Notes under the pieces: model-generated
Told to the model about the DNA's origin: nothing
What the model saw: only the letters and a program-made list of their open reading frames with translations
Databases searched by the model: none
Position numbers and translations under genes: made by a program
Virus record (IMG/VR): IMGVR_UViG_3300022602_000076
Span: 1 to 64,000 of that record
Direction: 5' to 3' (one strand)
Length of the DNA: 64,000 bases
Source: a virus
In this document: positions 20,331 through 49,999 of the stretch, piece by piece
How positions within the stretch are numbered: the stretch's first letter is position 1
Layout: each line of letters starts with the position of its first letter

Positions 20331-20359
20331 ATTATAACATAAAGTGGTTTTGTGGTCAA
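20331..20359 (-). promoter_or_regulatory. Sigma70 promoter of the TTGACC family
   Basis: TTGACC (20354-20359), 17-bp spacer, TATAAT (20331-20336), about 65-nt leader to the ATG at 20260. Confidence 0.75.
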
Positions 20360-20526: not shown

Positions 20527-20657
20527 GATAATACCTCTTCTAAAATCACATCATTGTAACCTTGTGCAATCCATTCTTTGTAGACCGCTTTGGCTTGATT
20601 TAAATTGTTGCCTTCATAATCGGCTACACCACCTACCCAAACAATAAATTCACTCAT
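20523..20657 (-). CDS. Small phage protein (44 aa) of the VWVGGV type
   Basis: Reads MSEFIVWVGGVADYEGNNLN, then QAKAVYKEWIAQGYNDVILEEV. This resembles small phage proteins with an IVWVGGV start and a WIxxGYDDVxxE end. The ATG overlaps the upstream stop (ATGA) and the stop overlaps the next start (ATGA). Confidence 0.75.
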   Translation of the reverse strand: MSEFIVWVGGVADYEGNNLNQAKAVYKEWIAQGYNDVILEEVLS

Positions 20658-21367
20658 AGTGTTCCTTTGTGTATGACTGTCACCCTGTTGAGTTGAGTGG
20701 TAGCATTGTCACGGTGAGCTTTGACAGTGCCACGGATTTTCACGCCAGGTCCTAGATCTATAGGAGCACGATAGCTGAAAAACACACTGCGGTTTTCAGT
20801 GTCTACCGCGGTTATGAACCAGACATTATAGTTCAAATTGTATGAAGTTCTCAATACTTCAATTTCCAAGTTAACCTTGGCGCCAACCGTGCTGACATGT
20901 TCGTTGACAGTTTGACGCAGTCTTGAGTCTGTTTCTGCTCGGGCCTGGCCACGAGCCTGGCTGGCAGGCAAGCATGGTACCACCGCCAGTGCTAACTTGT
21001 CAATGTTGGAATCAAAGTTTTCTGTGACGGCCAGGACCTTTTGCACACTCAAATCAAAATCGCTGAGTCGACCTCGGAGTGCTTTGAAAGTAACATCGCC
21101 ACGCACCCAGTCTAAACATTCTTGTCCGGCCTGGATGTCACCAGCATCCAATCGATCAGGATTGGCCAGTAATTCTGCAAACACCTCACGATTTGTTCGA
21201 TACTTCAATACAGGAGGCTCCGCTTGAGTATCCCACTCAGGGGCTTTGATATAACGATTGCCATTGATACGATGAGCAGCTACTGCCGCGGCCCAAACAA
21301 CTGCAACAGAATATTGGATGCCGGGTACAACTCGACGAGCGGATTTTGACATGGTGTAATACTGCAT
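20654..21367 (-). CDS. Hypothetical protein with OB-fold-like C terminus (237 aa)
   Basis: Residues about 190-237, VFFSYRAPIDLGPGVKIRGT with VKAHRDNATTQLNRVTVI, look like the small OB-like end found in several phage nucleic-acid proteins. The N-terminal part is helical and Arg-rich. The promoter and AGGAG cassette at 21371-21426 precede it. Function unknown; nucleic-acid binding is a guess from the end domain. Confidence 0.65.
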   Translation of the reverse strand: MQYYTMSKSARRVVPGIQYSVAVVWAAAVAAHRINGNRYIKAPEWDTQAEPPVLKYRTNREVFAELLANPDRLDAGDIQAGQECLDWVRGDVTFKALRGRLSDFDLSVQKVLAVTENFDSNIDKLALAVVPCLPASQARGQARAETDSRLRQTVNEHVSTVGAKVNLEIEVLRTSYNLNYNVWFITAVDTENRSVFFSYRAPIDLGPGVKIRGTVKAHRDNATTQLNRVTVIHKGTL

Positions 21368-21370
21368 TTA

Positions 21371-21426
21371 TTGCTCCTGTTTTCTTACTATGCTGTTATT
21401 ATAGCAAAACGGTGATTTTTGGTCAA
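21371..21426 (-). repeat. Promoter/RBS cassette, copy 1 (56-bp perfect direct repeat)
   Basis: Identical over 56 bp to 21647-21702. It contains, on the minus strand, TTGACC (21421-21426), a 17-bp spacer, TATAAT (21398-21403) preceded by TGC (extended -10), and a CAGGAGCAA ribosome-binding site. Confidence 0.9.
21398..21426 (-). promoter_or_regulatory. Sigma70 promoter, TTGACC-N17-TATAAT
   Basis: Drives the gene starting at 21367 and its coupled small genes; leader about 25 nt including AGGAG. Confidence 0.82.
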
Positions 21427-21442
21427 TCTTTTTGTGTTGTTT

Positions 21443-21643
21443 TTACACAACATCAGGAGATCTGCGGGGACTTTGTTCCCAAACTGCATCATGCTCTGCT
21501 TGGGCACGAGCGACCATGGCACGAAACTCTGCTTGAAACGCAGGGCTGAAAGATTCAACCATTCTGACATGTTCCATATCAGCGACGGCTCCGCTCATTG
21601 CTGAAACTCTGTCTCTCCATTGTTCTGTTTCAAAACTGGCCAT
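21443..21643 (-). CDS. Hypothetical protein (66 aa)
   Basis: Starts MASFETEQWRDRVSAMSGAV at 21643, just after the AGGAG of the duplicated promoter cassette. A longer reading would be translated through the promoter and is rejected. Helical, charged, no family recognised. Confidence 0.7.
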   Translation of the reverse strand: MASFETEQWRDRVSAMSGAVADMEHVRMVESFSPAFQAEFRAMVARAQAEHDAVWEQSPRRSPDVV

Positions 21644-21646
21644 TTT

Positions 21647-21702
21647 TTGCTCCTGTTTTCTTACTATGCTGTTATTATAGCAAAACGGTGATTTTTGGTC
21701 AA
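21647..21702 (-). repeat. Promoter/RBS cassette, copy 2
   Basis: Perfect copy of 21371-21426, 276 bp away in the same orientation. Confidence 0.9.
21674..21702 (-). promoter_or_regulatory. Sigma70 promoter, TTGACC-N17-TATAAT
   Basis: -35 at 21697-21702, -10 at 21674-21679; drives the gene starting at 21643. The -35 abuts the 3' end of the next gene upstream (stop at 21699). Confidence 0.82.
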
Positions 21703-21926
21703 CCAAACGCTTTAAATAACCCTACAACACATATGGCTATTCCCACTGCATTGGTAACCATCTGTGGCTTATTTGCAACACGCAGGCTCCACACCATGTA
21801 CAGTGCGCCACCGCAGAACCCTGCTAGAATGTTCCAAGGATAAAGATTCAAGCTCATAAGCGTATACATGGCCATAAAACAGGCTGTTCCGGACCACTGT
21901 AAAATTTCGTTAGTATCTAATTTCAT
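21699..21926 (-). CDS. Small three-helix membrane protein (75 aa), SemiSWEET/PnuC-like
   Basis: Three hydrophobic helices: LQWSGTACFMAMYTLMSL, WNILAGFCGGALYMVWSL and AVGIAICVVGLF. Size and pattern (start with QW.G, Asn near helix 3) recall SemiSWEET-like half-transporters and similar phage proteins; transport is not shown. The -10 of its promoter lies 6 nt before the ATG with no ribosome-binding site, so it should be leaderless. Confidence 0.65.
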   Translation of the reverse strand: MKLDTNEILQWSGTACFMAMYTLMSLNLYPWNILAGFCGGALYMVWSLRVANKPQMVTNAVGIAICVVGLFKAFG

Positions 21927-21932
21927 AAACTA

Positions 21933-21961
21933 ATTATAGCAAAATGGGTGTTTTTGGTCAA
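21933..21961 (-). promoter_or_regulatory. Sigma70 promoter, leaderless start
   Basis: TTGACC (21956-21961), 17-bp spacer, extended -10 TGCTATAAT (TATAAT at 21933-21938), ATG after 6 nt. Confidence 0.8.
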
Positions 21962-22001
21962 CCAAAAAGTGTTGTTTTTTCGCCACACATTTGTGTTACA
22001 G

Positions 22002-22007
22002 TAAATA
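22002..22007 (+). promoter_or_regulatory. Late-promoter-like box TAAATA
   Basis: AGTAAATA ends 5 nt before the ATG at 22013; no ribosome-binding site between. Divergent from the promoter at 21933-21961. Confidence 0.45.
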
Positions 22008-22012
22008 TCAGT

Positions 22013-23095
22013 ATGATCTTAAACTGCCCAGTTCACTACTACGGATTCGCTGATTATGCGTTATCTGACTGGAATATACAGCTAGCTGACCCTGTTAAAA
22101 ATTGCAAATTTAAAATGGCCGCCATACCAGTTTTGTTGCAAGGAAACAAAGTGGACTTTTTCCTGGATCCATCATGCATGCCCAGTGATGCACCACCTGA
22201 TCGTCAAACGCCCTACATAGATCTCAGTGAATTTGATTTTGTAGTTCTCAGCGACAATGAATACGCATCTGCTGACGATATTAGAAAAGCAGTGGCCAGA
22301 CACAAAATCAAAAAGTATGTGGTGTCATTGGGTGCCTTGTGGCACAACGAAACTGTGGATGAATCTTGCATGGTGCATCGTCCTTGGTGGCCATTTTTGA
22401 CTGTGAACACCAACACCTATCAAGACACCAGTGGCACCAACAAACCTTACATGTTTGATGTACTGTTAGGCAGTCGTCGCTGGCACAGAGATTTTGTCAT
22501 GAAAGAATTCATACAATCCAATCTAATAGATCAAAATGTCATTACCTATAGAAATCTGCTGAAGGTACAAGATGTTGCTGAATACAATCGAACCAACAAT
22601 CAAAACTTTCCTGAAGTCGAAATTCCCTATCCCTGGGTTAATACAAATTATGATTCAGCCTGGGATCGACCCCTGTCCACAAACATATCCTGGGACCTGT
22701 ATCGCCACACCAATTATACCATAGTCACCGAAACCTTGTTTGAAGGTCCAACGGTTTTTGTCACAGAAAAAGTTGCCAAGCCCATTGTGGCTGAACGATT
22801 GTTTATTGTTTTTTCTGTGGACAGATATCTACAAAGATTACACGAAATGGGATTTCAAACATTTGATTCTGTGATTGACGAAAGTTATGACCTAGAACCA
22901 AATCTATCCAAACGCCTGGGTATGGCCATGGACCAAGTCAGATATCTGCACACTCAAGATCCTGACAAGATCAAAGAAAAAATACTGCCGATTGTAAAAC
23001 ACAATCATCTGAGACTGATAGAATTACAGCAACAGACACACCAAAGAATGGAAGATCTGTTGCGGCAACACATACCTGCTGAGTTTATTGCCTAA
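22013..23095 (+). CDS. Glycosyltransferase-like protein (exostosin/fucosyltransferase type), 360 aa
   Basis: The C-terminal half holds YTIVTETLFEGPTVFVTEKV, then AKPIVAERLFIVF and FQTFDSVIDESYD, the nucleotide-sugar binding pattern of exostosin/alpha-1,3-fucosyltransferase-like GT-B enzymes (VxEKxxxPIxxxxxFI). The same block recurs in the gene at 62453. The start at 22013 (MILNCPVHYYG) is preferred over an upstream one that would overlap the divergent promoter. It is the only plus-strand gene between 2.8 and 35 kb. Confidence 0.65.
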   Translation: MILNCPVHYYGFADYALSDWNIQLADPVKNCKFKMAAIPVLLQGNKVDFFLDPSCMPSDAPPDRQTPYIDLSEFDFVVLSDNEYASADDIRKAVARHKIKKYVVSLGALWHNETVDESCMVHRPWWPFLTVNTNTYQDTSGTNKPYMFDVLLGSRRWHRDFVMKEFIQSNLIDQNVITYRNLLKVQDVAEYNRTNNQNFPEVEIPYPWVNTNYDSAWDRPLSTNISWDLYRHTNYTIVTETLFEGPTVFVTEKVAKPIVAERLFIVFSVDRYLQRLHEMGFQTFDSVIDESYDLEPNLSKRLGMAMDQVRYLHTQDPDKIKEKILPIVKHNHLRLIELQQQTHQRMEDLLRQHIPAEFIA

Positions 23096-24333: not shown

Positions 24334-24600
24334 TTAAACTGTTTCTGATTGGTTGCGTTTCTCGTCCATCATTTCAAACAAGATGAACTTGGCAATGTTT
24401 AAATTGCAACGGATCAACTCGTCAGTAAACGGTGATCCAATTTCAGGATTCTTCATTGCAATCATTTCTTGGCAGTCTGACATAATGCCAGCAACAACCA
24501 TTTCAAGACCGGAACATTTTGCAGTGATTGAATTCATGTATTGATCACGAATTTGTTGCTCGGTCATTCCGTACATTTTAACTTCGTTTGCGTTTGACAT
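24334..24600 (-). CDS. Hypothetical helical protein (88 aa)
   Basis: Starts MSNANEVKMYGMTEQQIRDQ at 24600, after GGAGCAGAAA; an apparent upstream extension runs through the promoter at 24631-24659 and is rejected. Helical with Cys in KCSGLEM and RCNLNI. First of a run of small genes down to 23.1 kb. Confidence 0.7.
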   Translation of the reverse strand: MSNANEVKMYGMTEQQIRDQYMNSITAKCSGLEMVVAGIMSDCQEMIAMKNPEIGSPFTDELIRCNLNIAKFILFEMMDEKRNQSETV

Positions 24601-24630
24601 TTTCTGCTCCTTTTTGTTTAATATGCTATT

Positions 24631-24659
24631 ATTATAACCGTTCTTGTATTTTTGGTCAA
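24631..24659 (-). promoter_or_regulatory. Sigma70 promoter of the TTGACC family
   Basis: TTGACC (24654-24659), 17-bp spacer, TATAAT (24631-24636). Together with the following GGAGCA site it looks like a diverged relative of the 56-bp cassette at 21.4/21.7 kb. Confidence 0.8.
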
Positions 24660-24664
24660 CCATT

Positions 24665-24979
24665 TTAGTGACTGTTGAGTGTGGGTTTTTGACTGTTGAT
24701 CAATTCGCGCTCTATGGCATGTGCGGGCTTTCTGCCACGCACAATGTCAACTAAAAGTACTACAAAAGCTTCTGCACCATGTTCTCTAATACTGTTGCAC
24801 AAAGCCCACGCTTTGTTCTCAGTAAGTGCACGACGCACATGCTTCTGAAAGCGAACTTTTAGTGCTTTATTGACTTGACTTCCACATACAGTAATGCCAA
24901 TATATGACTCGTTTGTGTTAGTATTCACTAACATATACACTGCATGTTTGGTATCTTGACGGCGTTTTCTTGTTTTCAT
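24665..24979 (-). CDS. GIY-YIG nuclease domain protein (104 aa)
   Basis: AVYMLVNTNTNESYIGITVC gives the GIY...YIG motifs (here VYM and YIG), followed by VRFQKHVRRALTE with the Arg/His typical of the fold, and a later Glu (AIERELINSQKP). Size fits a single-domain endonuclease; a free-standing homing or junction nuclease is possible. The ATG at 24979 lies 6 nt after the -10, so it should be leaderless; an upstream extension into the promoter is rejected. Confidence 0.8.
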   Translation of the reverse strand: MKTRKRRQDTKHAVYMLVNTNTNESYIGITVCGSQVNKALKVRFQKHVRRALTENKAWALCNSIREHGAEAFVVLLVDIVRGRKPAHAIERELINSQKPTLNSH

Positions 24980-24985
24980 GTTATT

Positions 24986-25014
24986 ATTATAGCAAATCGG
25001 GCATTTTGGGTCAA
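24986..25014 (-). promoter_or_regulatory. Sigma70 promoter, leaderless start
   Basis: TTGACC (25009-25014), 17-bp spacer, extended -10 TGCTATAAT (TATAAT at 24986-24991), ATG after 6 nt at 24979. Confidence 0.8.
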
Positions 25015-32892: not shown

Positions 32893-33267
32893 TCATGTTC
32901 GGCACAGTTCCAATAAGGTGCAGTAATGTTGATAGGCTTTTTCCACAGCAGGATTGTTTAGTCTAACTACGCGATCCCGTTCATATCTAGCCATTAATTT
33001 CTTATCGGTTTCATGTTTATCTATTTCAGATTCTGCGTATTTGATATAATTGATAATAGTTTCTAATCTATCTTTAGGCATGAGTATGTCCACACAAGGC
33101 ACTTCTTCTGAGTGTGCTTGTTGATATAACATTTCGTCAGATATAGTGACATTCCAGGCGTTTATCTGCGGCAACGGCGGTCGTATTAGTCTACGCAATG
33201 TGCGATTGCTAAGTCTAACCTGCATTTCCATTTGATTGTAAAAGTGTTGATTAGGATCGCTCATCAT
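32893..33267 (-). CDS. Conserved phage protein (124 aa)
   Basis: Begins MMSDPNQHFYNQMEMQVRLS; DILMPKDRLETIINYIKYAE and RVVRLNNPAVEKAYQHYCTL mark a family common in phages: a Leu-rich helix followed by R.RxNPAVxxAYxxYQxLL. Function unknown. Confidence 0.7.
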   Translation of the reverse strand: MMSDPNQHFYNQMEMQVRLSNRTLRRLIRPPLPQINAWNVTISDEMLYQQAHSEEVPCVDILMPKDRLETIINYIKYAESEIDKHETDKKLMARYERDRVVRLNNPAVEKAYQHYCTLLELCRT

Positions 33268-33497
33268 TCAATTCCGAAATGTGCTCGAATATATTTGCTC
33301 ACATAAGAATCCATGTCTGCTCTTTCTACTTCATCAGCAATCGCACAACATTCTCTTACAATCAACTCGGCGAACTTTGCGTAATGCATTTCTAAATGTT
33401 CTGAATACATTACCACATGGTCTCGTTCTACCGTTTCAAGGTCATGTTTCACAAAAGCCCATGCTTCTTGTCTAATTTGTCGAATTCGTTCGTTCAT
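33264..33497 (-). CDS. Small paralogue of the FAELIVREC family (77 aa)
   Basis: MNERIRQIRQEAWAF, AKFAELIVRECCAIADEVER, RAHFGIE. Same three blocks as the genes at 33724, 33915 and 34448. Overlaps the downstream gene as ATGA. Family is widespread in phages, function unknown. Confidence 0.75.
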   Translation of the reverse strand: MNERIRQIRQEAWAFVKHDLETVERDHVVMYSEHLEMHYAKFAELIVRECCAIADEVERADMDSYVSKYIRAHFGIE

Positions 33498-33508
33498 TCT
33501 TTTAATCC

Positions 33509-33727
33509 TTACATATAATAAGGTTTGGGACTACGATACACTTCAACAGTATCTAACATATTCTTTGCTTGGGTTATAGCAAGTTCTTTTGCTCTTTCAT
33601 CAGGAAGATGCTCAGACACTTTATAACATTCCGCAAATTTCCAAAATAGAAAATTCTTATATTGTACATTATATTCTTTCAAGTGTGCGTCATACACAAC
33701 TCGTGTTTGTAAAAATAGGTTTTTCAT
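33509..33727 (-). CDS. Conserved small phage protein (72 aa)
   Basis: MKNLFLQTRVVYDAHLKEYN, FLFWKFAECYKV, KNMLDTVEVYRSP. The family (Q..VVYN...Y.V.YR...FWRF...AENMLDTVEVWR) is one I recall as common in phages. Function unknown. Confidence 0.75.
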   Translation of the reverse strand: MKNLFLQTRVVYDAHLKEYNVQYKNFLFWKFAECYKVSEHLPDERAKELAITQAKNMLDTVEVYRSPKPYYM

Positions 33728-33918
33728 TGTTCAACTCCGAAATGTTCTCTAATATCATCACCCATAGTCCCGCCACCATCTTTCCGTTCACGCAAGATGT
33801 TATCTACTCGGCCGGCACATTCCCGGATCAGCAACTCGGCCAACTGTTGAGCACGCTGAGCCAACTCCGGAGCCGCATAGCCTGCTGCCAACATCAATTT
33901 TCTTAGGTTTTCATTCAT
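33724..33918 (-). CDS. Small paralogue of the FAELIVREC family (64 aa)
   Basis: MNENLRKLMLAAGYAAPELA, RAQQLAELLIRECAGRVDNI, DIREHFGVEQ. Shortest member of the array, overlapping both neighbours as ATGA. Confidence 0.72.
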   Translation of the reverse strand: MNENLRKLMLAAGYAAPELAQRAQQLAELLIRECAGRVDNILRERKDGGGTMGDDIREHFGVEQ

Positions 33919-34169
33919 TCCGCAACTCCGAAATGTTTCTTTATATGAGTTACTGCTTCCAAAATACCATCATTGAATCCAAGTTTATTTCGTACAGCAA
34001 CATCGTCAGCAAGACCTGCTCCACGAGCACAATCAATACATTCCTGAACAATCAACTTGGCGAACTTTTCCTTTAGTATTGATAACTGAGAATGGGTCAG
34101 TGTAGTCCAAGTTTCTGGTATAGTTTGATCCATAGCCTGTCCAAACAGTTTATTGATTCGTTCGTTCAT
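33915..34169 (-). CDS. Small paralogue of the FAELIVREC family (84 aa)
   Basis: MNERINKLFGQAMDQTI, KFAKLIVQECIDCARGAGLA, HIKKHFGVAE. A member of the tandem array, overlapping both neighbours by 4 nt. Confidence 0.74.
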   Translation of the reverse strand: MNERINKLFGQAMDQTIPETWTTLTHSQLSILKEKFAKLIVQECIDCARGAGLADDVAVRNKLGFNDGILEAVTHIKKHFGVAE

Positions 34170-34282
34170 CTTCCATCCTTAGCATCATTGTATCCGATTA
34201 AATAACCCATCACTAACGCAAACATCATACCCGCAATGGCAATGGCTGTGCCAATCATTGGTCCCAAATTAAATTCATTCAT
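34166..34282 (-). CDS. Small membrane protein (38 aa)
   Basis: Starts MNEFNLGPMIGTAIAIAGMM at 34282 behind AAGGA, one membrane helix, end GYNDAKDGR. Longer in-frame readings run into the gene at 34275-34451. Function unknown. Confidence 0.6.
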   Translation of the reverse strand: MNEFNLGPMIGTAIAIAGMMFALVMGYLIGYNDAKDGR

Positions 34283-34451
34283 GCCGGTCCTTTTCCCAAG
34301 GGGTAAATTCGTATCTGTAAACGGGTAACAGGCCAAACAACCATGTACCAACCTTTACTTGTTTTAATTCTCTATGCTCAACTTCGGGCCGGTATTGGTC
34401 TGGGGTATTTCTAATTCTCGTGAAGTCATCTTGGAAATTTGTTAGGTTCAT
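34275..34451 (-). CDS. Small protein (58 aa)
   Basis: Reads MNLTNFQDDFTRIRNTPDQY, then RPEVEHRELKQVKVGTWLFG and an aromatic end (VYRYEFTPWEK). It overlaps the gene above as ATGA and the gene below by 8 nt, so it is part of the coupled run. Not recognised. Confidence 0.65.
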   Translation of the reverse strand: MNLTNFQDDFTRIRNTPDQYRPEVEHRELKQVKVGTWLFGLLPVYRYEFTPWEKDRHE

Positions 34452-34696
34452 TCTTCAACTCCGAAATGTTCTCTAATTCCACTAATCATCTTTTCACAAG
34501 CACGGTCATACCCAATAACATAATGTGTATCAGTTGCTGGTTCCCCTCTAACCTCAAAGGCAATGTCTAAACAGTCTCTCACAATCAACTCGGCAAACTT
34601 TTGATTGTAAGCTTCAATCCATTCATTCACAGTGAGTCTCCCGACAGGAATGTTGAGTTTTGCTTGATTAGCAAGTTCTTGAATTTTATTGCTCAT
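34448..34696 (-). CDS. Small paralogue of the FAELIVREC family (82 aa)
   Basis: MSNKIQELANQAKLNIPVGR, KFAELIVRDCLDIAFEVRGE, ISGIREHFGVEE. First member of the tandem array. Coupled to neighbours on both sides. Confidence 0.75.
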   Translation of the reverse strand: MSNKIQELANQAKLNIPVGRLTVNEWIEAYNQKFAELIVRDCLDIAFEVRGEPATDTHYVIGYDRACEKMISGIREHFGVEE

Positions 34697-34857
34697 ATTG
34701 TATTTTCCAACAAACGATTGACATACAACAGTACTTCAGCTAGATTCCAGGAAAATATTAAGCCATCAAAAATATAAGTCCAACGACGCCCTGTGTAATC
34801 CCAGGTCACTAACCAGTACCAAGTCAACAAAAATGCAACGACATTTAGATAGATCAT
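34693..34857 (-). CDS. Small membrane protein (54 aa)
   Basis: Reads MIYLNVVAFLLTWYWLVTWD, then YTGRRWTYIFDGLIFSWNLA; one or two hydrophobic helices. ATGA overlaps both the upstream stop (34854) and the next start (34696). Function unknown. Confidence 0.65.
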   Translation of the reverse strand: MIYLNVVAFLLTWYWLVTWDYTGRRWTYIFDGLIFSWNLAEVLLYVNRLLENTI

Positions 34858-35315
34858 TGTGATGCTTTCACTGCTCGTTGTGACAAATAAGCTTCGTTTT
34901 CAACCCAACCTTTGGTGGTTAAAAATCCCCACTCGCGTTGTTTTGGACCTGGCATAAACAAGGTCCAAGTTTCCACATCAGGGTCTAATTCTATACGATG
35001 ATAACCAGTAGCAGGAGAATACCTAAAATGACCAGGCCCTCGCCAATGCCCAACTTCTCCACACTTTCTTCCTGTTTCATCGAACTGAGGAATCCACTCA
35101 TAATAACCACCTTTTAAAATCAGTGTGCAGTAGGGCCAAGGATGGTCATGCACATCATCTGGGTCGCCCTTGAGGAACCTGTGCAAAAACACATTGAACG
35201 GAAATCGTTCGCGATCTTTTAAGAATAGATAGTAGCGTTCCAGATAGGGTTCATTATTTACCCTGTCCATTATAACCCTATATCTGCCCAGTTTGGTAAA
35301 GAGATTTTTTATCAT
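34854..35315 (-). CDS. Cupin-like protein (153 aa)
   Basis: DPDDVHDHPWPYCTLILKGG and GPGHFRYSPATGYHRIELDP form a cupin-type double motif (HDH...E...and a distal His). The end GPKQREWGFLTTKGWVENEA is typical of cupin-like phage proteins. Enzyme activity is unknown. First gene of the long 35.3-29.4 kb operon; its mRNA should be leaderless. Confidence 0.68.
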   Translation of the reverse strand: MIKNLFTKLGRYRVIMDRVNNEPYLERYYLFLKDRERFPFNVFLHRFLKGDPDDVHDHPWPYCTLILKGGYYEWIPQFDETGRKCGEVGHWRGPGHFRYSPATGYHRIELDPDVETWTLFMPGPKQREWGFLTTKGWVENEAYLSQRAVKASQ

Positions 35316-35321
35316 GTGTTT

Positions 35322-35350
35322 ATTATAGCAAATCCAGGATTTTTGGTCAA
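35322..35350 (-). promoter_or_regulatory. Sigma70 promoter, leaderless start
   Basis: TTGACC (35345-35350), 17-bp spacer, extended -10 TGCTATAAT (TATAAT at 35322-35327), ATG after 6 nt at 35315. Likely drives about eighteen coupled genes. Confidence 0.8.
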
Positions 35351-46300: not shown

Positions 46301-46990
46301 GCCACCACACTGACTTGGACTCCAGTTATTTGTTTGGCCGAAGGCACTTTGATCACTCTGGCAGATGGCTCTACCAAGGCCATTGAAAATATCACAATGT
46401 CAGACTCAATTCGAGTCTGGGACTTTGACAACGGTGTAACTGCAAGTGCAACTCCATTGTGGATTAAACATAGAGAAAGTACGGTTCAGTATAACTTGCT
46501 GAAATTCAGTGACGGATCGGAACTCAAGACCATTGGTCAACACCGTATATTCAACAAGGAAGCAGGAGCATTTACATATCCAATGACTTCAGCTACTCCC
46601 ATTGGAACTACTACAATTAAAGTCGACGGAACTGAAGTTACGCTGACCGGCAAGAGAGTTGTGTATGAGCGAGTCAACTATTATAATGTGGTCACTGCAG
46701 GCGGATACATGAACTTGTATGCCAATTCAATCTTGACCAGTATGCGTTACAACAATATCTATCCCATTGCTGACATGCGGTATGTCAAAGACAGTCGTGT
46801 GTTGCGTAACCGTGCAGAGTTTGCGGGCATAGCTGATCGTTGGATTGATGGATTGCGCTTGCCAGAACAAACCATTGACATCAAACACATAAGAAAATAT
46901 GTTGACCGTTTGGAAAAAAACGAAGCAGTTGCAAAGCTATCACTATCGTCTCCAAGCACAAAATGGACCACTGGTAAATTAAAGGTATAA
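43331..46990 (+). CDS. LamG-containing tail adhesin with C-terminal Hint domain (1219 aa)
   Basis: Residues about 130-270 are a LamG/concanavalin-like module (DTWYCVAVTYDAGDGTMKLY). The middle is Gly-rich with GGGGAGGYG-type runs and a second beta domain. A Hint (hedgehog/intein) domain begins at Cys 1001 (CLAEGTLITLADGSTKAIEN) and ends near YANSILTS; an 80-residue helical tail follows. The Hint Cys could drive self-cleavage. No HN-Cys splice junction is seen, so splicing is unlikely. AAAGG precedes the ATG. Confidence 0.87.
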   Translation: MALVIEGGISIGGNITITSENITPETDLVLFYDAGNSMSFNGTGSTFNTAFTGQLVNSGYYANVIVDLSILSGGAGNAGNLTGESGNTATWTSQGVASYWSFDAGSNQYIDSTWQASNVGASSAPTLNSPTYTILAVARPQDFNNGAIVGGDQNIFAFGPNGGLNDGPTLAAANGYGPPAVIDTTTQFETDTWYCVAVTYDAGDGTMKLYTNGNLVATATSVPSIDHPTGLYWGTLEGDLWFTGDLSVAMVWERAISADEISQFSTAFLSRYVTPAATSSAVFTTPYVGGPPATFTVPEGVTSISVVAVGAGGGGTTDGYSPPGTDSVMLRADNYVYANTTYTGTSNTIWIDGTANPNIANVTGDGTWIVGGSDIGYPASSVPGWDLVTSVNSGNVSNVVITINKSITTTAGDNFFFYQAVAAAEGGLEIDNYFYNQANLNPGGSNLPLGPGSSALALVTDGPYGNGGVVDWTAEYPVGGGGAGGYGIDGLAWNIDHAGSWIQNGNVDSGYHTLNFSNNNLTVTALVDIGTGAANQECQVLGTSTVALGNAKIMYSVVVNHASGIGYTGVGLSNYYENLQNYTGCSDNSIGYYDDGQVFINGTNVGNCAPFVTGNVVDIAVDLGLERVWFRADGGSWNNNGTADPAAGTGGLDISTVIAQGYPLTLAASPWYNDDTSGVDSISIATISYWSTPSGFTFIPGVASAGGTGGQGASYYAGNNTDGTGGAGAGGGGLYENTGAGGSGTSLYGRGLNGVAGSFAPYGSPDNSVSTASTGGSPLFSLDGNGGQATPWNGGRGGWPGGGGGSGLDYYMAGNGGALAYRNNYAVTPGQQFIISPGLGAQGQFGGGSGSNGAIRIVWPGDTRQFPSTNVGPDTVVVPTLDITAHDLPSGNPIGQITFNINSTGGSTILEAGVVWGLPGQATYSASTDICSGSSSTAQRKAVRDGDSCSNPFTTGLTGSQTINFDAYEFNNEEIQVRAYARNSAGVAYSATTLTWTPVICLAEGTLITLADGSTKAIENITMSDSIRVWDFDNGVTASATPLWIKHRESTVQYNLLKFSDGSELKTIGQHRIFNKEAGAFTYPMTSATPIGTTTIKVDGTEVTLTGKRVVYERVNYYNVVTAGGYMNLYANSILTSMRYNNIYPIADMRYVKDSRVLRNRAEFAGIADRWIDGLRLPEQTIDIKHIRKYVDRLEKNEAVAKLSLSSPSTKWTTGKLKV

Positions 46991-47009
46991 TATGTCATTG
47001 GCAGGAATT
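46975..47009 (+). repeat. 35-bp perfect direct repeat, copy 1
   Basis: Spans the leader, AAAGG ribosome-binding site and first codons of the LamG gene at 46992; identical to 47736-47770. Confidence 0.9.
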
Positions 47010-47732
47010 ACACTAGGATCAGGAATCACAATTGGTGCTGGAGTTAGTATCAACTACGGAATTGTAACTACTAATCTTGCACTGTCGTTGGACGCACAGA
47101 CATATCCAGGATCAGGTACCACATGGCCGGCCACTGTAGGACCCGACGCTACCTTGTATAATGGTGTGACCTGGACAGACACAGGACCGGGATATTTTAC
47201 CTTCGTTCCCAGCAGTTTGCAATTTGCCACTGCACCCAACATTGGAGATTTAAGCAACTGGACTGTGGAATGTTGGTTCAAAGTGACCAGCAATTTTGCA
47301 GGCTATGAATATCCTGCCTTGGTAACAACCGTTTATCAAGAACAGGATGGCACTCTTTACAGTAATATAAATTATACCCTGAGCACATACCCAGACAACA
47401 CCACACTTACCACAGGGTATTTCAACGGTGCTTGGCACACCACCAGTGGGTTCACACCCACAGTAGGCGACTGGTATCAAATGGTGGGCACCTTTGATGG
47501 TACCACATTAAAAACTTATGTAAATGGTGTGGAGTTCTCTTCGGCCGCCGGCAGCGGTGCTAGCATAGCCAACGGTGCACCAATTCGTATTGCTCGGCGA
47601 TGGGACGGCGATGGCGAAGCCAAATACTTCATGCCTGCCGAGATTTCTGTTGTGAGAGTTTACAGTGCCGCCCTGACTTCTGCACAGGTTCACCAGAATT
47701 TCAATGCTTTGAGAGCACGATTTGGATTTTAA
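46992..47732 (+). CDS. LamG/concanavalin-like tail protein (246 aa)
   Basis: N terminus MSLAGITLGSGITIGAGVSI, then a LamG fold: LSNWTVECWFKVTSNFAGYE, GDWYQMVGTFDGTTLKTYVN, AEISVVRVYSAALTSAQVHQ. Likely carbohydrate-binding tip or decoration. It shares its leader, ribosome-binding site and first codons (35-bp repeat) with the next gene. Confidence 0.82.
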   Translation: MSLAGITLGSGITIGAGVSINYGIVTTNLALSLDAQTYPGSGTTWPATVGPDATLYNGVTWTDTGPGYFTFVPSSLQFATAPNIGDLSNWTVECWFKVTSNFAGYEYPALVTTVYQEQDGTLYSNINYTLSTYPDNTTLTTGYFNGAWHTTSGFTPTVGDWYQMVGTFDGTTLKTYVNGVEFSSAAGSGASIANGAPIRIARRWDGDGEAKYFMPAEISVVRVYSAALTSAQVHQNFNALRARFGF

Positions 47733-47735
47733 AAA

Positions 47736-47770
47736 TAAATTAAAGGTATAATATGTCATTGGCAGGAATT
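47736..47770 (+). repeat. 35-bp perfect direct repeat, copy 2
   Basis: Same element before the LamG gene at 47753. A shorter related leader (ATTAAAGG) precedes 43331. Confidence 0.9.
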
Positions 47771-48478
47771 CAAATCGGAGCAGGCGTTCAACTTGGATCA
47801 GGAATCTCTGTTAATCCTGCGCTACCAACATTGGTTTTAAATTTGGATGCCAACAATCCCAGTTCATACAGTGGATCAGGAACCACATGGTATGATGTCA
47901 GTGGCTTTGGCAACAATGTTGACATGGTCAACAGCGGTGATATCACTTTCTGGACTGGCAGCCCTTCCTATTTTGCCACAGGCGAAACTGGATATTTCAG
48001 TGGGGCAGGCTCGTCGGGTATTCCTGTGGGCAACACTCTTTATACCTTGGCTTGCTGGGTTAACAGTCCTGGGCAAGGAACATGGGGAGCCAATGGACTT
48101 GTAAGCATTGGTGGGTATGGTGAAGGCAATCAATCAAATGCATTTAGAACTGCATCAAATCCCATCTTGGTCAACTACTGGTGGGGAGATGACTTTGCAG
48201 TAGGAACCACGGCTCCAAGCACTGGATGGTTTTATGCAGTAGTGACCTACGATGGTATACATCGCAACATGTATGTCAACGGTGTGTTGCAAGGCACTGA
48301 TACACCTTCTGGCACGCACAATGTGGTTTCGTCTACGGTTCAAGTTGCGGCTACAGATGTTGGTCTAGGCGAATACTTAAACGGCAACATTGGAGCAGTT
48401 TACATTTACAATTATGCACTCAGTGGTGCAGATATATTGGCAAATTTCAATGCCACACGAAGCATATACGGAGTATAA
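47753..48478 (+). CDS. LamG/concanavalin-like tail protein, paralogue (241 aa)
   Basis: MSLAGIQIGAGVQLGSGISV, then LVLNLDANNPSSYSGSGTTW with WYDVSG, and GWFYAVVTYDGIHRNMYVNG, GNIGAVYIYNYALSGADIL. Same architecture as the preceding gene, from which it may have arisen by duplication. Likely glycan binding. Confidence 0.82.
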   Translation: MSLAGIQIGAGVQLGSGISVNPALPTLVLNLDANNPSSYSGSGTTWYDVSGFGNNVDMVNSGDITFWTGSPSYFATGETGYFSGAGSSGIPVGNTLYTLACWVNSPGQGTWGANGLVSIGGYGEGNQSNAFRTASNPILVNYWWGDDFAVGTTAPSTGWFYAVVTYDGIHRNMYVNGVLQGTDTPSGTHNVVSSTVQVAATDVGLGEYLNGNIGAVYIYNYALSGADILANFNATRSIYGV

Positions 48479-49368: not shown

Positions 49369-49702
49369 TGTGTTTGCAGTCGCCTCGGAATTTAAAACCA
49401 GTACAACTGCAACTGAGCTGACCAGATTCGTCGGTGACTGTGTACTTGTCACCTTTGGATCCTGTCACTGTCCAAGATTTACTAATAGATTTCAGATCTT
49501 CTCGAGGGAAGAAGCCCCAGGTATTGGGTACTTCTCGAAACTTGCGTCCACGCACATCTAGTTTCAGTGGCGACTTGAATTCAAACAATTCTGTCTTACC
49601 CACGGGCAAATAAGCATAAGCCTTGCTTTTTGAATCATCCATGAAATAGATATGATTGGGAGTTTTTTCATCCCATGCTGTGATTTCTTCAAACACTTTC
49701 AT
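49346..49702 (-). CDS. SWIM zinc-finger protein (118 aa)
   Basis: The C terminus LSCSCTGFKFRGDCKHIKDC fits the SWIM pattern CxC...CxH; the rest is beta-rich. SWIM domains bind DNA or protein. It converges with the papain-like gene and overlaps the upstream gene as ATGA. Confidence 0.78.
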   Translation of the reverse strand: MKVFEEITAWDEKTPNHIYFMDDSKSKAYAYLPVGKTELFEFKSPLKLDVRGRKFREVPNTWGFFPREDLKSISKSWTVTGSKGDKYTVTDESGQLSCSCTGFKFRGDCKHIKDCAPR

Positions 49703-49941
49703 TGTCTAATGCCTTTGATATCTTTGTATTCTACACGAATAACATTGTACACTATTTCATCTATTTTAAATGGCAAGTCCAAACTCACAGTGACCCTGGG
49801 TCCTTCGATTTCACTTCTTATATTGTCAGATCCCACAGTACCAACAAAAGGCACACCCTGGTAAATGCCATCTACTCTGTCGCCAAATCGATACTTGGGC
49901 TTGGGAATAGTTCGATCAAAAAAATCTGTTAGATTACCCAT
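49699..49941 (-). CDS. Small phage protein (80 aa)
   Basis: PKYRFGDRVDGIYQGVPFVG, then VTVSLDLPFKIDEIVYNVIR; an SH3/KOW-like beta barrel is likely. GGAGCC precedes the ATG. Not recognised beyond that. Confidence 0.65.
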   Translation of the reverse strand: MGNLTDFFDRTIPKPKYRFGDRVDGIYQGVPFVGTVGSDNIRSEIEGPRVTVSLDLPFKIDEIVYNVIRVEYKDIKGIRQ

Positions 49942-49970
49942 TGCTGGCTCCGTTTACTGCTCAAGTTGTA

Positions 49971-49999
49971 ATTATAGCAAAAAGATAAATTCTGGTCAA
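49971..49999 (-). promoter_or_regulatory. Sigma70 promoter of the TTGACC family
   Basis: TTGACC (49994-49999), 17-bp spacer, extended -10 TGCTATAAT (TATAAT at 49971-49976). The -35 overlaps the end of the glycosyltransferase gene. Confidence 0.78.

Follow-up and report, generated by a model that had tools for sequence, protein, structure and literature searches.

An exact 56-nt promoter repeat belongs to a dispersed family of cassettes at gene boundaries in uncultured huge phages

Repeats described at gene starts of other viruses

T4-type phages carry promoter-early stem-loops (PeSLs; Arbiol et al. 2010, doi 10.1093/gbe/evq006; Comeau et al. 2014, doi 10.1093/gbe/evu129; cited in PMC4503421, PMC4177764, and PMC3950731). 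In the haloarchaeal virus HGTV-1, a motif made of a TATA-box and an inverted repeat precedes most ORFs of the left arm and has been proposed to serve both transcription and genome shuffling (PMC3950731). Cluster K mycobacteriophages have phage-specific repeats, SAS and ESAS, which lie at the starts of unrelated genes, are absent from the hosts, and were suggested as possible recombination targets (PMC3203893). Cluster O mycobacteriophages contain more than 30 dispersed repeats per genome, with two reported deletions between repeats, as well as predicted promoters with the start codon at +1 (PMC4351075).

The window analyzed here (the whole 64,000-nt stretch of DNA) belongs to a viral record of 71,720 bases, the relatives of which are phages of approximately 350 kb. 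No nucleotide match to it was found in isolated phages (50,697 records), and Rfam gave no match anywhere in it. It contains an identical pair of cassettes belonging to a family in which cassette length is roughly 35–60 bases. As PeSLs are summarized in the papers citing them, the cassettes resemble them in being repeated host-like early promoters in gene-plastic regions and in providing small homologies for gene shuffling between related phages. Unlike the PeSLs so summarized, the cassette unit joins a promoter to a translation start, frequently with fusion to the stop codon of the gene upstream, and the family includes a leaderless class. Its phages are also distant from T4: the record encodes PhoH and a T4-type clamp loader, the latter less than 60% identical to that of any isolate. 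The HGTV-1 motif, set beside the cassette by description only, is likewise a promoter-like repeat before many ORFs, but its promoter is of the archaeal type and the inverted repeat is its core. SAS differs in sequence and, at 13 bp, marks translation starts instead of being a promoter (ESAS adds inverted repeats); the motif GGGATAGGAGCCC was not found in the cassette, which has AGGAGCAA/AGGAGCC. The Cluster O repeats differ as well, being 17-bp palindromes mostly unrelated to promoters. The mycobacteriophage repeats at gene starts (PMC3203893, PMC4351075) are analogues that lack a promoter.

The identical pair and the other cassettes of the window

Copies A (21371–21426, before gene g1) and B (21647–21702, before gene g2), both on the minus strand, were identical over exactly 56 nt. 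The identity stopped abruptly and extended 0 nt on either side, which confirmed the exact duplication reported in the first-pass annotation. Both copies consist of TTGACC-N17-TATAAT (with TG before TATAAT), a leader, and AGGAGCAA, followed by ATG, and each contains all the parts that had been named (−35, spacer, extended −10, leader, and AGGAG). The best chance matches to the 56-nt cassette in shuffled windows had 24–27 mismatches. The unit ends exactly with the −35 on one side and just past the Shine-Dalgarno sequence on the other, with no terminal inverted repeats, target-site duplication, or shared flanking base. A transposon-like mobile promoter element was rejected on these grounds, together with the lack of a transposase and the fact that the 56 nt encode nothing.

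The genes behind the two copies are unrelated, as had been claimed. Gene g1 (20654–21367, minus strand; 237 aa) is kept in large relatives and occurs on contigs of up to 367 kb; its C-terminal part matches phrog_2319, and it had no match among 50,697 isolated-phage records. Gene g2 (21443–21643, minus strand; 66 aa) is nearly an orphan, with relatives elsewhere on 3 contigs only (47% identity), placed behind a GIY-YIG gene. In the window phage it fills the slot behind g3 (21699–21926, minus strand; 75 aa), the stop codon of which (TGA, 21699–21701) sits inside the −35 of copy B (21697–21702); homologues of g3 likewise have a cassette behind them that overlaps their stop codon. The pair around g2 is most simply explained by a recent gain of a unit, or by local conversion, next to g1. 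A long open frame on the opposite strand (21944–23095, plus strand; up to 383 aa) starts at the promoter of g3. None of the close relatives in the comparison had it in this slot, and it had no confident family match.

The window contains eight TTGACC-N17-TATAAT sites, all on the minus strand, and the six beyond the pair start at 20359, 21961, 24659, 25014, 35350, and 49999. The first (20331–20359, downstream of g1) is a promoter of the same form with the core only. The sites starting at 21961, 25014, and 35350 have neither a leader nor a Shine-Dalgarno sequence, with ATG 6 nt after TATAAT; these are the predicted leaderless cassettes of g3 (21927–21961), of a small GIY-YIG nuclease gene (24980–25014), and of the gene at 34854–35315 (35316–35350), whose PHROG match is cysteine dioxygenase. 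The site at 49942–49999 has a leader and CGGAG and precedes the gene at 49699–49941. The recurrent motifs noted earlier at 21933, 24986, 35322, and 49971 proved to be the −10 ends of four minus-strand promoters, but not all of these are the same cassette. Similarly, 24601–24659, the cassette of the gene at 24334–24600, had been taken for a diverged third copy. With 15 mismatches in 56 positions relative to the pair, it is a real family member, but not a recent copy: the site is an old one, common to orthologues in relatives, and its leader matches the cassette of the orthologous gene there (score 0.93 versus G014:11400).

Repeats of other kinds were observed elsewhere in the window. Tandem repeats D6/D7 (33260–34601, minus strand) form a run of small, apparently paralogous genes with shared motifs at regular intervals, and repeat D8 (46975–47803, plus strand) consists of approximately 35 identical nt common to the start regions of two adjacent genes, which are neighboring paralogues.

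The cassette family in relatives

Exact TTGAC-N18-TATAAT sites numbered 32, 36, 37, 27, and 33 in five relatives of approximately 350 kb, versus 0, 0, 1, 0, and 3 sites for a control pattern. None were found in T4 or Atu_ph07; PA5oct had 11, with no common spacer, and XacN1 had 28, several of which are repeated entries. The family that had been suggested from the window is thus real: it is phage-specific, precedes many unrelated genes, and has 27–37 sites per 350-kb relative. Its spacers and leaders are lineage-specific, with spacer dialects such as TTGACCAAAAATnCCCnATTTGC and TTGACAATAAATCACTTTGGGTA. The dialect TTGACCAAAAATNNCCNNTTTGCTATAAT occurred in at least 119 viral stretches and had 0 matches in cellular genomes (257 Gb searched); because of this absence, the cassette gives no clue to the host. 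Isolated phages (50,697 records) yielded weak partial matches only. The consensus, TTGACC-17-TATAAT with TG at −15/−14, is of the sigma70 type and points to host-type promoters, which would be active early in infection.

In 127 Shine-Dalgarno-coupled cassettes before unrelated genes, spacer and leader were more alike within than between genomes (observed likeness reached in 0 of 300 label shuffles), whereas the 20 nt upstream were not. Likeness within a genome decreased with distance, from 0.61 at less than 1 kb to 0.43 at 10–50 kb and 0.41 beyond (observed value reached in 0 of 1000 permutations), with all related loci being metagenome contigs and related contigs not being independent. Such a decrease is as expected from local duplication or conversion; selection on sigma70 contacts would not by itself account for it. 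A second exact cassette pair was present in G014. In held-out loci, which had been selected by spacer, the within-contig effect was reproduced for leaders, not for spacers.

The position of the start codon separated two classes. Among 372 cassettes, ATG was found at offset 6 past TATAAT in 64, compared with 0 to 5 at offsets 3–5 and 7–8, and a second peak was found at offsets 29–33, with a Shine-Dalgarno sequence. At offset 6, the A of ATG falls on the expected +1, that is, the mRNA would be leaderless. These cassettes are predicted to represent a conserved class of leaderless early mRNAs; the layout is kept before orthologues of the GIY-YIG gene (in many phages), g3, and the cysteine-dioxygenase-like gene.

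The stop codon of g3 or its homologue (TGA) lay inside the −35 (TTGAC) of the next cassette in 40 of 45 loci, the end of g3 usually being TTT GGT TGA CC (Phe-Gly-stop). The genes behind that next cassette formed 12 clusters, ten of them with an identified ORF, and represented at least ten unrelated families. The upstream stop was exactly in the −35 in 156 of 656 cassettes (24%), versus 2.5% of other TTGAC sites.

Gene turnover at cassettes

In relatives, the slot before g1 varied by whole cassette-plus-gene units. With F17, F18, and F23 as labels of gene families, the order was P-F17, P-F18, P-g1 in L034 and L037; P-F17, P-g1 in L038; P-F17, P-F23, P-F18, g1 in L039; and P-g3, P-g2, P-g1 in the window phage. 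The cassette of L038 has the left flank of the P-F18 cassette of L034 and the right side of that of P-g1, and in L048 the left flank of P-F23 of L046 is joined to the F18 gene. Both junctions of these single-unit gains or losses (L034/L038 and L046/L048; relatives, not the pair of the window) lay inside the cassette. The P-F18 cassette of L034 was identical to the adjoining P-F17 cassette, but differed in L037 despite flanks that were 97% identical.

Across all loci, for gene starts 75–97% conserved between two phages, the left neighbor was kept at cassettes in a mean of 34% of cases (54 families). The corresponding values were 69% for other intergenic starts (21 families; P = 0.0015) and 77% for starts with tight spacing (32 families), with neighbor breaks about twice as frequent at cassettes as at the other intergenic starts. 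Some breaks would be expected wherever one transcription unit gives way to another, and the control sites may represent boundaries of a kind unlike cassettes. When both flanking genes were conserved, the cassette was nearly always conserved, with few replacements (192 pairs), and free exchange of promoters alone is therefore rare. Thus, of the mobile promoter cassettes proposed earlier, what stands is that gene order breaks and re-joins at them, but the main process is not the hopping of promoters by themselves. As to whether neighboring genes move with the cassette, a check proposed in the first-pass annotation, mostly cassette-plus-gene units change, with junctions in the cassette. The contrary outcome named beforehand, a cassette fixed at two positions in relatives, was not observed.

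We consider it probable that the two 56-bp copies are one example of a phage-specific regulatory joint, present at dispersed sites, where gene units recombine. Such a cassette would provide a sigma70 early promoter, read by host RNA polymerase early in infection, and a ready-made translation start, either a leader of approximately 30 nt with a Shine-Dalgarno sequence or an ATG placed exactly at +1. At the 5′ end, the cassette is often fused with the stop of the preceding gene (TGA inside TTGACC). No match to an RNA polymerase beta-subunit was found in eight related records. As many small genes are separated by this one type of joint, we infer from the sequence comparisons that homologous or template-switch recombination between two joints could insert, delete, or exchange whole cassette-plus-gene units, and could also homogenize neighboring cassettes locally. 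A swap at a joint would leave the reading frame unbroken and no gene without a promoter or start site. Identity between cassettes (approximately 55 bp) is near the length of approximately 50 bp reported to suffice for T4 recombination (PMC4177764), and a RecA-family recombinase is encoded in 5 of 5 relatives of approximately 350 kb tested.

Every cassette is a near-perfect sigma70 promoter and is conserved where the gene context is conserved, as could also be true of ordinary strong early promoters made alike by sigma70 and Shine-Dalgarno selection, with the exact pair as a single local duplication. This reading is already disfavored, and we regard it as unlikely: positions of the spacer and leader outside the sigma70 contacts are shared within genomes, their likeness decays with distance, G014 has its own exact pair, and gene order breaks at cassettes. 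Still less likely is a conserved spacer that serves as the binding site of a phage regulator co-evolving with its sites. The conserved CCC at the spacer center, the lineage dialects, and some palindromic −35 regions (TTTTTGGT-TG-ACCAAAAA at 21961) would suit an operator, but we rejected one in the spacer after finding no convincing dyad covariation in 94 spacers, and a shared operator accounts for neither the distance decay nor the shared leaders.

The GIY-YIG gene (24665–24979, minus strand) lies directly behind a leaderless cassette in the window phage and in many relatives, and its nuclease might cut at or near cassettes and spread them. That is very improbable. Exactly one copy was found in 17 of 17 related records, so the gene behaves as part of the core and seems to encode a conserved nuclease, not one engaged in homing; a homing-endonuclease mobile element, for which patchy presence and spread with the target would be expected, was rejected on this count. 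Moreover, cassette junctions occur far from the gene. The gene had no match in 50,697 isolated-phage records, and no relative of the protein with a solved structure was found by sequence. We attach as little weight to chimeric joining of metagenome contigs at short identical repeats. Repeats are a known cause of chimeras, all related loci come from such contigs, and the pair of the window rests on one record; however, contigs from separate samples show matching arrangements (L034/L035/L036; L046/L047; L304/L305/L338; L325/L327), and 40 loci have the stop-codon overlap in exactly the same frame.

If cassettes are recombining joints, as we favor, a newly acquired gene would arrive already wired for expression, which bears on the ways in which large phages gain small early genes that are expressed immediately. 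The joints would mark the boundaries of gene units to the nucleotide, predict real early genes among small ORFs (among them leaderless genes, which start-site callers may overlook), and serve as a phage-specific signature by which accessory early regions could be located in uncultured huge phages. The chances seem evenly balanced that, in a clade of huge uncultured T4-related phages, early genes are interchangeable units on a stop-promoter-start linker (the −35 being the stop, and the start being leaderless or behind a fixed leader) and that recombination there is the main route by which genes turn over in these regions.

Stem-loops and likeness to PeSLs

A perfect upstream hairpin was found in 30 of 124 cassettes (approximately 24%), versus 6.6 in shuffles and 9.5% of control starts. 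Copy A has a weak 6-bp hairpin upstream (21435–21452, minus strand), with no T-run on the transcribed side, and copy B has no counterpart to it. An obligatory promoter-terminator composite was rejected, the stem-loop being found in a minority of cassettes only. Of the features of PeSLs as summarized in the citing papers, the cassettes have a host-type early promoter (as judged by consensus), repetition in regions of gene turnover (neighbor-break test and slot comparison), and, for the relatives, junctions at the cassette; the stem-loop or terminator part is not general. Because a stem-loop is found in only approximately 24% of cassettes and not at copy B, we regard the cassette as a PeSL variant. 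The likeness to the T4 shuttling elements, pointed out in the first-pass annotation, extends to the unrelated genes and to the breaks and re-joins at cassettes, but not to the stem-loop missing at copy B.

Strong hairpins over the −10 (stem of at least 10 bp) were found at 11 promoters in relatives, versus approximately 1 expected, so that true composites do occur in the clade. Inverted repeats of 10–14 bp overlapping the −10 lie at L108:1596, L087:1290, L269:7890, L081:2064, G001:56884, and G015:77328, with a T-run after some. By its sequence, such a hairpin would terminate transcription arriving from upstream, and its second arm would contain the start site. A further hairpin, CCAAATAGTGTTG[CATAAAAA]CAACACTATTTGG, precedes the −35 upstream of position 7311 in L034 and L037, and its loop is exactly inverted between these two close relatives ([TTTTTATG] in L037).
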